The position numbers and the translations under genes were made by a program. Positions 43,179 through 48,709 of a stretch of 64,000 nt of DNA are shown here, in pieces. This DNA comes from Fimbriiglobus ruber (GTDB taxonomy: Bacteria; Planctomycetota; Planctomycetia; Gemmatales; Gemmataceae): NCBI RefSeq assembly GCF_002197845.1, contig NZ_NIDE01000004.1, positions 868,001 to 932,000 on the forward strand, read 5' to 3'. Under the pieces are notes generated by a model. It worked only from the letters and a program-made list of their open reading frames with translations, was not told where the DNA came from and made no database searches. Positions within the stretch are counted from its first letter, which is position 1. Each line of letters opens with the position of its first letter.

Positions 43179-43745
43179 TTACGCGTCCAGGAGTGACACA
43201 TTGTCCCACGTCTGGAATTTGTGGGTCATCAGGGTCGCCAGTTTCTCTCGGTGTTTCGTCGGCAGATCCGCCAAGCAATGGTCGATGGCCTCCTGGAACT
43301 TCTTGAAGTCCTGATGGTGGCGGCTGTTCAACGCCTCCTTCTTCACGAACTTCCAGAGTCGCTCGATCAAGTTCAGGTTCGGCGAATACGACGGCAGGAA
43401 CAACAACTCGATCCCGAGTGCCTTGGCCGTGTGCTCCACCAGCGCGCACCGCTGGTAGCGGGCGTTGTCGAGTACCAGCGTGATCGGCAATGACCCACCG
43501 AGGGCCGCGATCTTGCGGAGCAACGCACACACCGAGGTGGCCGTGATGTACGTCGTGTTGATTTCTGTCACCAGCTCGTGCGTGACCGCGTTCAGCGCAC
43601 CCAGCACGTTGTACCTCTGCCGTCCCGACGCGGCCCGGACATGTAACCGGACGAAGCACCACACCCACCCCAGGAACGACGCCAAGACGAAGTGCGACGC
43701 GTCCACGAAGTACACCGTCCGCTTACCGTCGCGGGCTTCCGCCAA
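43179..43745 (-). CDS. IS630-family transposase, DDE catalytic part (ORF B)
   Basis: Catalytic half of the transposase, 188 residues from the first usable TTG. The DDE triad is visible: TVYFVDASHF (first D), ITLVLDNARYQRC (second D) and FLPSYSPNLNLIERLWKFVK (E). The stop codon TAA lies inside the left inverted repeat. ORF B overlaps the end of ORF A by 23 bases in another frame, and a T6A4 run (43765-43774 in the reverse sense) lies just ahead of the overlap. It is expected to be made as an ORF A-B fusion by slippage. Confidence 0.9.
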   Translation of the reverse strand: MAEARDGKRTVYFVDASHFVLASFLGWVWCFVRLHVRAASGRQRYNVLGALNAVTHELVTEINTTYITATSVCALLRKIAALGGSLPITLVLDNARYQRCALVEHTAKALGIELLFLPSYSPNLNLIERLWKFVKKEALNSRHHQDFKKFQEAIDHCLADLPTKHREKLATLMTHKFQTWDNVSLLDA

Positions 43746-44247
43746 CTTCGGTTCCAGTTCCGTCTTTTAAAAAATCCGCCTGCGTGCGGGCGTGTTCGTC
43801 GACCGTTTTCTTGGGCGGCACCGGGATGGGTGCCACCTTCAGGCATTTCATCCCCAGATCCTCTTTCAAGAACTGGCGCACCCGCGACGCCTTGCGTCGG
43901 ACGCCCGTCAGGTCCTCGATCCGCCGCGCCGCCTCGTGGGCCGTGTGCGGCGGGTGCCGGCGAAACGCGTCTTCGATCGTCCCGTGATGCGGTGTCAGCG
44001 CACTGGGTTGGCCCTTCCAGCCGAACGATCGGACCCCATCCAGACCCTTCGCCGCATAGATCCGCAGGGTCCGCTGCACCGTGGAGCGCGACACGTTGGC
44101 CAACTCCGCGATCCGACTGTGCGTCACGTTCCGGGTCTTGAGCCAGAGAATCTCCATCCGCTCTTGGACACGCGGGTCCGGGTGCCGATAGCGCGCGTCC
44201 GCGATCGCTTGGACCACGGGTTCGGGAAACGAATATTGGGGACGCAT
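43723..44247 (-). CDS. IS630-family transposase, DNA-binding part (ORF A)
   Basis: A 174-residue N-terminal part with two helix-turn-helix units typical of IS630: SRIAELANVSRSTVQRTLRI and the following winged region (EAARRIEDLTGVRRKASRV). It binds the terminal repeats. Translation alone would end at GGSPRR; slippage by one base near the T6A4 run would extend it into ORF B, which lies in the +1 frame. ATG at 44247 is used. Confidence 0.88.
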   Translation of the reverse strand: MRPQYSFPEPVVQAIADARYRHPDPRVQERMEILWLKTRNVTHSRIAELANVSRSTVQRTLRIYAAKGLDGVRSFGWKGQPSALTPHHGTIEDAFRRHPPHTAHEAARRIEDLTGVRRKASRVRQFLKEDLGMKCLKVAPIPVPPKKTVDEHARTQADFLKDGTGTEVGGSPRR

Positions 44248-45585: not shown

Positions 45586-46923
45586 TCACTTTACCGGCTT
45601 CGTGTATTCGCCTCGCATAAATCCACTCTCGGCCGGCGCCGCGTACCGGATATCCAGGTCTGGCGTTTCCAGCCGCTTCGACCCCTGGGCTCGTGACTCC
45701 AGGGCGTAATCGAGGATGCCGCCGGTGAGTTGCGTTCGCTCGATCGGGCAGTGAGGTTTGCCGGTCGCCAGGAACTTTTCGACGTGCGTGGTGAGGGCTT
45801 CGAGGAACGCGGCTCCGGGAGGCGGCGGGAGGTAAAACAGAGTCGAGACGGGCTTTGTTTGTCCGGCGATTCGGCCGGCGAACGCTTCGTCGGCTGTGTG
45901 TCCGTCGAGTTGGAGGACAGTCGCCCGGAAGCCGTCCCGATATTCGACGTGGAACGCGATCGGGCCGGGGACGAAGTGGCCCCACGCCGTCGGCCGCCGG
46001 AACCGCCGGCAGTTCGAGCGTACATCGCCCGCGTTCCTCGACGGGCTGCGACCGAGGGCGTGGTCGAGCAGTTCCCACGACCAGATCCCGTCGTCGGCTG
46101 CCTTCCAAACGGCGTCCCCTTGCAGGCACGTAACCGCTTTCACGCCTTGTTCCGAGGGTTTTCCGTCGCCGCCTCCGAACCGCCGCTCGACCATCGATTG
46201 CAGGGCTTCGAGCGCGTGGATGCCGTAAATTTCGAGTTCGCCGTGCGACGACAGCAAGGCGTCGGTCAGCTTCACCCCGAGCGGCAATTCGAGTTCCGGC
46301 CGCCGCCATGTCACCGGCAGGCTCGACCCGGCCATGAGCGGGAAGCCGAGTTTCTTCGAGGTCGCGACCATGTCGGCCGCTTTCGTCCGGTCGTAGCTGA
46401 GGTGTTTGTCGCAGAAGACTGGGACCGAACGCCCGGACTTCTCGAACACGGCCACGATCTGCCGAAAGAACTCGTTTCGCGGATAGAGCTTCTGACCCTT
46501 GTCGTTGTAAGGGTAGTCGCCGTGTTCGCAGATCAGGAGGACGCCGTCGACCGCGAGCCGGCCGGTGCCGAGCGTGAGGGCGTCTTCGATCGTGGGCGAG
46601 ACGCGGAAGCCGTGTTCCGTGGCCAGATCGCGGCTCAGGTCGCTCGCCTTCACCTGATCGACGTAGGCACTGGCGACGCCGAACTCCGGGAAGTGGTGGT
46701 CGTCGCCGACCATGTAGCCGTCGAGGAATCGGCCGGCGATGTGGTACGTGTGCGAAAGATACCACCAGACCGACGAGACGACGGCCACCTTCTTCGCGGC
46801 CGGCTTCGACCGCTTCGGCGGGCGAGAGCGGGGGTCGGTGGCGGCGGCGGCCGTGAGTTGTCGGCCAGCGGTTGTGGCAAGTGCAGCGGAAGCCAGAAAA
46901 GCGCGGCGGGTGTGTCGGGTCAT
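45586..46923 (-). CDS. Exported protein of unknown function with Tat-type signal
   Basis: A 445-residue protein. The signal TRHTRRAFLASAALATTAG has paired arginines and a short hydrophobic stretch, so Tat export is probable. The mature protein has VAVVSSVWWYLSHTYHIAGR, DGVLLICEHGDYPYNDKGQK and SGRSVPVFCDKHLSYDRTKA, with His/Asp/Cys-rich loops that suggest a metalloenzyme, but I do not recognise the family. ATG 46923 is the start; the frame remains open upstream as far as 47190 but there crosses the long inverted repeat. It is transcribed alone. Confidence 0.65.
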   Translation of the reverse strand: MTRHTRRAFLASAALATTAGRQLTAAAATDPRSRPPKRSKPAAKKVAVVSSVWWYLSHTYHIAGRFLDGYMVGDDHHFPEFGVASAYVDQVKASDLSRDLATEHGFRVSPTIEDALTLGTGRLAVDGVLLICEHGDYPYNDKGQKLYPRNEFFRQIVAVFEKSGRSVPVFCDKHLSYDRTKAADMVATSKKLGFPLMAGSSLPVTWRRPELELPLGVKLTDALLSSHGELEIYGIHALEALQSMVERRFGGGDGKPSEQGVKAVTCLQGDAVWKAADDGIWSWELLDHALGRSPSRNAGDVRSNCRRFRRPTAWGHFVPGPIAFHVEYRDGFRATVLQLDGHTADEAFAGRIAGQTKPVSTLFYLPPPPGAAFLEALTTHVEKFLATGKPHCPIERTQLTGGILDYALESRAQGSKRLETPDLDIRYAAPAESGFMRGEYTKPVK

Positions 46924-47030
46924 GGTCGTGGTGGGTGGGGTCGGGATGTCTGAGGAGGGACACCGAATGTACCCGAGCCGCACCCACATGCTCAACGAAC
47001 AAACCCGATTTCGGTTTTTTGTGTGGTGAT

Positions 47031-47318
47031 GTCTTGGGGCTCTGCCCCAAACCCCGCCGGAGGGGTTGGACCCCTCCGGACCTCCCCACTTGCTCCCGGT
47101 CAGTGAGTCGATCTCAAAGCCGATCGACTCACTGACCGCTCGCGGGACCGTTTTGGAACCGAGCGAAGAGTCGATGTCTTCCCGCCGCAATCAATCCAGG
47201 CCCCTGCGAGCGACCCGCGGAATGATCCGCTCTGGGATCATTCCGCGGGTCGGGAGCAAGTGGGGAGGTCCGGAGGGGTTCAACCCCTCCGGCGGGGTTT
47301 GGGGCAGAGCCCCAAGAC
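47031..47318. repeat. Large nested inverted-repeat element
   Basis: Two 68-base arms (47031-47098 and 47251-47318) are complementary except for one base (47069). Between them lie two further perfect hairpins: 17-bp arms with an eight-base loop (47097-47138, CGGTCAGTGAGTCGATC) and 18-bp arms with a six-base loop (47211-47252, CGACCCGCGGAATGATCC). Each long arm also folds alone (TTGGGGC/GCCCCAA and CCGGAGGGG/CCCCTCCGG). The whole looks like two REP-like units in inverted order with a structured centre. No protein is supported in it. Confidence 0.85.
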
Positions 47319-47357
47319 GGCCTCCCACCAGGACGCCCCGGAATCCCCGGGAATGCT

Positions 47358-47404
47358 AAAGCGTCGTGGGCCGCCGGGAATAACCCGGCGGCCCACGACG
47401 CTTT
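47358..47404 (-). terminator. Terminator hairpin of the DUF1501 gene
   Basis: A perfect 21-bp stem (starting AAAGCGTCGTGGGCC) with a five-base AATAA loop begins 25 bases after the DUF1501 stop on the minus strand. Stem ends in a T triplet on the minus strand. It is distinct from the large repeat nearby. Confidence 0.8.
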
Positions 47405-47428
47405 ATGACTCAAGACTCGCAGCCGGCT

Positions 47429-48709
47429 TTAGCCGACGAGAGCCTTGATCGCGTTGACCTTGTCGCCCGCGATCGCGGTCGGGCGGCCGAGGTTGTCGCG
47501 AATCTGGGTGGCCGGGTCGAGGCCGAGGCCGGCGTACAGGGTGGCGTAGAGGTCGCCGATCTTGACCGGGTTGTCCTTGACTTCGGTGCCGTCCGAGTTG
47601 GTCGTCCCGTAGGCGATCCCGCCCTTGATCGTGCCGCCGCCGACTACCACCGACCAGGCGCGGGGGAAGTGGTCCCGGCCGCCGTTCTGGTTGATCCGCG
47701 GGGTCCGGCCGAACTCACCCATCCACACGATCACGGTGTCCTTGAGCCGGCCCGATTGGGCGAGGTCTTCGGTCAGCGAAGCCATGCCCTTGTCCAGGTT
47801 CGGCAGCGCCCGGGTGGCCAGGGCGTTGAAGATCCCGTTGTGCATGTCCCAGCCGCCGAGGGAGACCTCGACGCAGGCGACGCCCTGCTCGACCAGCTTG
47901 CGAGCCAGGAGGCAGCCGCGGCCGAAGCCGTCGTTGCCGTACCGTTGCAGGTCGGCGGTGTCCTTGGCGCTGTTGAACTGGAAGACTTCCTTGCGGCTGG
48001 AGGTCACCAGTTGCAGGGCCTTGCCGTACACGTCTTTGTGGGCCTGGGCGGCGTCCGCGGAGACGTTGGTCTTGAACCCACCTTCGAGCGTGTCGAACAG
48101 CACCTTGCGGCGTTCCATCCGGCTCGCGACGTCTTGCGGCGGCTGGACGTTTTCCGGCGGCTGGCCGGGGTTCTGAACGACGAACGAGGCGTACTTCATC
48201 CCGAGGAAGCCGGGGCCGGTCCGCCCACCGCCGACCGAGATGAACGAGGGCAGGTCCATGTTCTTCATCGCTTCAACGTCTTGAGCGTACTGGTAGCTCA
48301 GGACGGAGCCGATGTGCGGGAACTCGGACAGCGGGTTCGGCACCCGGCCGGTGTTCATCAGGAACGTGCCCCGCGCGTGGTCGCCTTCGGAGGTGGTCAG
48401 CGAACGGACGATCGACAGGTTCTTGAACTGCTTGGCGACCTTCGGCAGGTGCTCGGTGATTTGCACGCCGCTGGCGGCCGTGCTGACCGGCTTGTGTTCG
48501 CCGCCGTTCGGGCTACCCGGCTTCATGTCCCACAGGTCGATCGTGGTCGGGCCGCCACCCATCCACAGGATGATGAGGCTCTTGTTCTTCTTCTTGAGTT
48601 CGGCGGCTTGGGCGTGGATGCCGGACAGGAACGTCAGCCCCGGACCGGCCACCGCGGCGGCCCCGGCGACGTGCTTCATGAAGTGCCGGCGGTCGGTGAT
48701 CCCGAACAT
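47429..48709 (-). CDS. DUF1501 protein with Tat-like signal
   Basis: A 426-residue planctomycete-type DUF1501 protein. The signal has RRHFMKHVAGAAAVAGPGL, so export by Tat is probable. Key family segments are LIILWMGGGPTTIDLWDMK, then GDHARGTFLMNTGRVPNPLS and VIVWMGEFGRTPRINQNGGR with DHFPRAWSVVVGG. These match the alkaline phosphatase/sulfatase-like fold proposed for the family, with metal ligands in the WMGGGP and DH segments. In most planctomycetes such genes pair with a DUF1549/DUF1553 cytochrome-like gene; none is here, so this copy is orphan. Divergent from the MoxR gene. Confidence 0.9.
   Translation of the reverse strand: MFGITDRRHFMKHVAGAAAVAGPGLTFLSGIHAQAAELKKKNKSLIILWMGGGPTTIDLWDMKPGSPNGGEHKPVSTAASGVQITEHLPKVAKQFKNLSIVRSLTTSEGDHARGTFLMNTGRVPNPLSEFPHIGSVLSYQYAQDVEAMKNMDLPSFISVGGGRTGPGFLGMKYASFVVQNPGQPPENVQPPQDVASRMERRKVLFDTLEGGFKTNVSADAAQAHKDVYGKALQLVTSSRKEVFQFNSAKDTADLQRYGNDGFGRGCLLARKLVEQGVACVEVSLGGWDMHNGIFNALATRALPNLDKGMASLTEDLAQSGRLKDTVIVWMGEFGRTPRINQNGGRDHFPRAWSVVVGGGTIKGGIAYGTTNSDGTEVKDNPVKIGDLYATLYAGLGLDPATQIRDNLGRPTAIAGDKVNAIKALVG

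Follow-up and report, generated by a model that had tools for sequence, protein, structure and literature searches.

A family of nested palindromes in Fimbriiglobus ruber, probably non-autonomous mobile DNA related to CGTC-tagged REP doublets

The window analysed here, a stretch of 64,000 nt from the planctomycete Fimbriiglobus ruber (contig NZ_NIDE01000004.1, positions 868,001 to 932,000), contains between two minus-strand genes a nested palindrome of 288 bp, which raises the question of whether such a structure is a mobile element, a chromosomal site acting in place or a structured RNA. One neighbour is a DUF1501 gene (47429–48709), whose end faces the palindrome and which has a perfect 22-bp hairpin just downstream (47357–47405). 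The other, without a Pfam match, has its start at 46923, as read from the sequence. The coordinates and geometry given in the initial annotation hold: the outer arms differ by a single mismatch, the two perfect inner hairpins (X and Y) are confirmed by the pairing of their stems, and either outer arm can alternatively fold as two smaller hairpins (Table 1). The two halves of the palindrome represent inverted repeats of 116 nt with 82% identity. Folding as single-stranded DNA yields a predicted energy of −152.7 kcal/mol, compared with a mean of −58.4 kcal/mol for shuffled sequences (z = −23.3; 0 of 200 shuffles as good). In the predicted fold, the long outer stem closes a multiloop, which holds the two inner hairpins and a weaker central stem.

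Table 1. Parts of the nested palindrome and its flanks, in window coordinates
Feature	Positions	Strand	Basis
Whole nested palindrome (two inverted half-units and core)	47031–47318		Fold and arm match; family of 34 pairs
Inner part of end A	47010–47030		Comparison with A consensus, 86% identity
Left outer arm, 68 nt	47031–47098	+	One mismatch against right arm (98.5% identity over 68 nt)
Left arm hairpin 1, TTGGGGC/GCCCCAA, preceded by tag TGTC, followed by CCCC tail	47034–47050	+	Columns conserved in 69 half-units
Left arm hairpin 2, CCGGAGGGG...CCCCTCCGG, followed by mirror tail CCTCCC (47081–47086)	47057–47079	+	Half-unit alignment
Inner hairpin X, perfect 17-bp stem (47097–47113 with 47122–47138), 8-nt loop	47097–47138	+	Pairing; covariation over copies
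Core, weaker central stem (CTCGC/GCGAG at edges), length differs among copies	47139–47210		Fold
Inner hairpin Y, perfect 18-bp stem (47211–47228 with 47235–47252), 6-nt loop	47211–47252	-	Pairing; covariation over copies
Right outer arm, 68 nt	47251–47318	-	Arm-to-arm match
Right arm hairpin 2, mirror tail at 47263–47268	47270–47292	-	Half-unit alignment
Right arm hairpin 1, preceded by tag CGTC (on minus strand)	47299–47315	-	Conserved columns; tag count
Inner part of end B, variant B'	47319–47348		Comparison with B' consensus, 90% identity

The window contains this single copy of the element, and no tRNA or tmRNA was found in it. Within the 12.36-Mb host genome, a covariance model built on 46 half-units detects 71 half-units of about 115 bp with at least 84 bits, the next match reaching 47.8 bits. 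With the exception of three solos, the half-units (68/71) are arranged in 34 inverted pairs, and the arms point outward in all 34. Distinct pairs number 33, since one pair, located at a contig end, duplicates another down to its flanks; this copy (L015, flanks as in L014) was omitted from the arm, stem, orientation, gene-start and tag counts given below. Palindrome length ranges from 284 to 927 bp due to differences in core length. No unpaired partner half was found within about 18–20 kb on each side of the three solos, and the idea that the solos bound an autonomous element whose interior is long was rejected on this ground.

Applied with strict filters to 94 further genomes from the family, the covariance model returned one weak match (E 0.013) and nothing else, a DNA search of 391 other genomes of the phylum, in which two candidates were scored per genome, did not yield any half-unit, and a search of 78 relatives with the whole unit gave one match of 30 bp. 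Patterns of 31 and 29 arm bases retrieved 0 stretches from genome contigs and viral contigs, respectively, blastn comparison of the whole unit with plasmids and phages gave no match, and a literature search did not reveal a published description of this element. The condition that the initial annotation set for its own refutation, arms confined to this site with inner hairpins not conserved, does not hold within the host genome, where 71 half-units exist and the inner hairpin stays paired despite its varying sequence; in relatives the element is absent rather than conserved.

A survey of nine gene pairs in relatives resolved two sites among the matches listed, both of which are empty. In G001, G002 and G030 the genes flanking L022 are neighbours with no element between them, and in G026 the two genes at L018 are likewise neighbours, with about 57 bases between the stop of one and the start of the other, as read.

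Most copies carry two further segments, end A (about 46–68 bp) on one side and end B (about 61–75 bp) on the other. While the interval 47031–47318 is correctly delimited as a palindrome, its extent as a unit falls short, since A and B are part of the repeated element in most copies. Throughout the genome, A and B are confined to palindromes, with three exceptions: two matches to B, both weak, and an A located next to a 29-bp piece of arm. The B terminus is constant and the A terminus variable. The ten bases just outside B recur at the outer end of A, forming a target duplication of about 10 bp, which is complete in five of 14 testable copies and matches at 9/10 positions in a sixth. The other eight are without clear duplication; five of them reach 8/10, a value also reached by the flanks of other copies, which served as the null and attain at most 9. 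No duplication was detected near the ends of the copies lacking A and B (L030–L033), or at the copy in the window, where only the inner parts of both ends are recognisable.

The dispersed family, the duplications in a subset of copies and the empty sites in relatives support the earlier suggestion of a possible non-autonomous mobile element. The palindrome is probably a mobile DNA element of this kind, a giant compound relative of CGTC-tagged REP doublets and REPINs, which is moved in trans. With prokaryotic MITEs, as described in PMC10969869, it shares short length, lack of autonomy, intergenic location, direct repeats of the target and a strong fold. The target duplication is clear in 6/14 testable copies. 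In contrast to that description, the element is G+C-rich and has its inverted repeats inside, and its termini A and B do not mirror each other, including in copies with duplications. It further departs from MITEs in that the host genome yielded neither an autonomous element nor a transposase bearing these ends. A search for the B end with up to three mismatches returned 22 matches, of which the 10 outside elements all have three mismatches, against 7 matches for the control. A B end common to an insertion sequence was rejected accordingly.

Which enzyme could act in trans? REPINs, in the REP-RAYT system described in PMC3116915, likewise spread as inverted doublets of palindromic units, for which hairpin and clover folds were proposed there, the latter for transposition and recognition by RAYT. 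Movement of the present element as folded single-stranded DNA by an IS200-like or RAYT tyrosine transposase would fit its inverted REP-like doublet and clover fold, and three Y1 transposases (Y1_Tnp) are encoded in the host genome. However, the REP-associated tyrosine transposase that the initial annotation recommended looking for did not emerge: against the RAYT model, with a cut-off of 80, the three score 20.9, no match and 19.5, two of them pass the IS200/IS605 cut-off, and neither arms nor ends were found in the 15–16 kb around each. Moreover, IS200-type transposition is not known to leave a target duplication, whereas a duplication of about 10 bp is seen here. A REPIN of the RAYT type is thus highly unlikely. 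Lack of a linked RAYT, target duplication and much greater length separate the element from REPINs as presented in PMC3116915, as does the combination of similar arms with dissimilar inner stems.

The design of the half-unit is nearest to CGTC-tagged REP doublets and REPINs. From the outside inwards, a tag is followed by hairpin 1 (tail CCCC) and hairpin 2 (tail CCTCCC), and a linker then leads to the inner hairpin 3, which is flanked by GCTCCCG and CGCTCGC. These flanks, the tails and an ATCC...GGAT loop are constant over the copies. The tags at 66 half-unit starts include CGTC (27), AGTC (14), TGTC (6) and GGTC (4), and hairpin 1 begins with TT/AA in nearly all cases, with a stem of 7 bp and a 3-nt loop or a stem of 6 bp and a 5-nt loop. 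CGTC-like tag, AT-first hairpin and doublets with the tags outside agree with the initial description of two inverted REP-like units around a structured core. According to PMC3733652, CGTC-tagged REPs possess a terminal unpaired CGTC, TGTC or CCTC tag and a stem of 8–9 bp with AT pairs at the first two positions and a loop of 4–5, and the same source describes tags-outside doublets, frequent heterodimers and no dedicated transposase gene found; the last three features resemble the situation here, the tag and the AT-first stem do so in part. Compared with the 20–40 bp of these REPs, however, the half-unit is about 115 bp long and has three hairpins, a CGTC tag is present in just 27/66 half-units, the first stem is shorter, the tail reads CCCC instead of CCA, and ends A and B with a target duplication are added. 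The list of CGTC repeats in PMC3733652 names five phyla, with Planctomycetes/PVC not among them.

Both tails mirror the 3' strand of their hairpins (CCCTCC-GGA-CCTCCC and CCCC-AAA-CCCC), and their conservation over 69 half-units amounts to 0.937 and 0.994. Judged from the sequence, the layout of arm hairpins and tails is that of an intrastrand triplex. A purine/pyrimidine-tract hairpin followed by a mirror third strand is also the hallmark of the triplex motif TM/BoxC (PMC4666352), which is likewise G/C-rich, intergenic and sometimes present as inverted pairs, but differs in sequence, and here two such units stand in tandem in each arm of a larger element. Even for TM, stable triplex in cells is described in PMC4666352 as not found.

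Evidence on the fold comes from variation among the copies. In the 46 half-units, 16 of 35 pairs have changed on both sides, 12 of these 16 in hairpin 3. Double-sided changes affect 209 cells, compared with a mean of 58 in shuffles (0/500 reach 209), and the signal is abolished by sliding the pairing partners; the number of further pair types (32 versus 34.6 in shuffles) is not in excess. Hairpin 3 exists as 45 distinct stems among 68 half-units. Nevertheless, with the shortened left hairpin of L033 omitted, no more than 14 of 1214 cells are non-Watson-Crick, among them seven A·C and no G·T in half-unit orientation. Because the reading of right halves follows the opposite strand, A·C could there correspond to G·U in a transcript, which limits wobble-like cells to at most 7/1214 (0.6%). 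The stems thus change by whole Watson-Crick pairs, almost without wobble, which is evidence for pairing of the inner hairpins being kept in DNA, not RNA, and disfavours the structured RNA considered in the initial annotation. The protein-binding site that was named there as well may still apply.

A known RNA family was ruled out, since all six Rfam matches up to E 1 remain below the gathering score. Retroposition of a structured RNA copied by reverse transcriptase, comparable to a bacterial SINE-like element, could account for a constant B terminus next to a variable A terminus, and the host genome has 16 RVT_1 matches, 15 of them over the cut-off. Yet selected RNA stems are unlike such a near-absence of wobble pairs, and no retroelement end with B was found in the host genome, which renders this origin very unlikely. 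Five of the reverse transcriptase matches, on G000 contigs 6, 9, 17, 18 and 20 (L315–L319) and in part near contig ends, have equal scores, which suggests a multi-copy retroelement breaking the assembly.

The outer arms behave differently from the inner stems. At ten variable outer-arm columns, the two arms of one copy agree in 26–33 of 33 copies, where 9.9–24.5 are expected. This excess ends past hairpin 2, save for a column at the edge of the core (26/33, p 0.001) and a linker column (p 0.05). Inner stems of the same copy, in turn, differ at 6.22 of 18 sites compared with 4.83 in shuffles (0/5000 as high; L033 omitted), and an identical pair of inner stems within a copy occurs in 0/32 cases, with 0.65 expected. 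Similar arms combined with dissimilar inner stems is the pattern expected of a DNA cloverleaf and suggests that the DNA of the element may fold in this way. The main caveat is that arm agreement and stem dissimilarity could both stem from one founder with two unlike halves.

Mutation may also be considered as the sole cause, with template switching of the replication machinery in hairpins perfecting the palindromes and copying one arm onto the other, in which case no selection on the fold would be needed. The agreement of arms within a copy is what such events would produce, as is the scarcity of mismatched intermediates (14/1214), and two exceptional copies, L010 with B-like flanks on both sides and L019 with a palindrome extended outwards, fit palindrome-extending events. 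However, neither the constant ATCC...GGAT loop, GCTCCCG, CGCTCGC and tails nor the target duplications would be explained, and the hairpins must still form in the cell, so that mutation as the only force appears quite unlikely. A more specific version of the mobile-element reading holds that selection keeps the arms alike and the stems unlike, such that the cloverleaf prevails over one long hairpin, and that movement follows a non-RAYT route with duplication of about 10 bp; this proposal is tentative.

The interiors are present in both orientations. Of 24 copies that could be assigned, 14 have X next to end A and 10 have Y there, and 5 of 27 X/Y copies show a core inverted with respect to its hairpins. 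Most simply, they would flip by recombination between the inverted arms.

The position of the element relative to genes is also biased. According to gene calls from a home-made caller (the gene to the right of L026 called by hand), end A points towards the start of a gene in 26 of 27 copies, including L010; among the 19 copies whose sides are unlike, this holds for 18, with L005 as the exception. The 36 loci with genes on both sides comprise 24 tandem, 10 divergent and 2 convergent arrangements; published REPs are described in PMC3733652 as lying mainly between tandem or convergent genes. The gene-start bias could result from target choice or from selection. In the latter case, the palindrome might be a cis-acting chromosomal element, for instance an insulator, supercoil sink or protein-binding site, which is selected upstream of promoters and owes only its origin to mobility. 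Besides the bias itself, this would accord with arms that are 90–100% identical to the consensus in the 34 pairs while A and B range down to chance level, and with the lack of strongly decayed half-units scoring from 48 to 84 bits. However, relatives lack the element even where the flanking genes are kept, the downstream genes are diverse and by eye without common function, and recent spread could explain the low decay. The claim of maintenance in place is further weakened because L001 and L024 retain recognisable inner ends once variant B' is used. A role in place is possible from the low arm decay, which recent spread would mimic, but a cis-acting element as the main explanation seems unlikely.

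For the favoured mobile element, the following course may be envisaged. Two REP-like half-units, head to head with the tags outside, would form a DNA cloverleaf, in which one outer arm pairs with the other and each of the two unlike inner stems folds on itself. The fold, adopted as single-stranded DNA or as a cruciform, would preserve the pairing and could serve as the recognition signal for a host protein or for the enzyme that moves the element. This enzyme, provided in trans, would make a staggered cut of about 10 bp, and copies bearing A and B would be placed between one gene and the promoter of the next.

The preference for heterodimers in REP doublets 'has no obvious explanation' in the words of PMC3733652; the contrast of similar arms and dissimilar stems suggests a testable reason for unlike partners. 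Natural variation over 68 half-units amounts to a mutational scan of a DNA fold, which separates arm-to-arm pairs from pairs within hairpins and points to Watson-Crick pairing in DNA. The family thereby allows study of DNA cloverleaf recognition, interior flipping and insertion next to promoters.

Several copies show peculiarities. L030 (1193–2118) and L033 (about 1013–1939) contain interiors of about 690 bp with candidate reading frames, the one in L033 appearing A+T-rich. The two candidate frames in these copies of about 925 bp gave no Pfam match, the L030 interior had no plasmid match, and both interiors are possibly captured genes. In L024, a tandem array with a unit of about 45 bp, composed of part of end A and arm hairpin 1, is located to the left of the palindrome, and within the core of L031 lies a further inverted repeat of unrelated sequence (GTGGGGGCACGTTTCCAACGTGCCC with its complement).

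Across phyla, the initial 23 arm bases are found in at least 118 stretches, and a 22-base version in 22 viral stretches. Elsewhere the 23-base start is mostly single, with an inverted partner at most 1.5 kb downstream in 4 of 120 cases and upstream in 0 of 120. It recurs in Clostridia, Synergistaceae, Acetobacteraceae, Rhodobacteraceae, Desulfovibrio, Streptomyces and others (L155–L272), where a further hairpin bearing a separate C tail often comes next, and represents a cross-phylum repeat worth a survey. Elsewhere in the window, two overlapping minus-strand frames at 43179–44247 encode DDE_3 and HTH_23 domains, which we take to resemble an IS630-type transposase in two frames.
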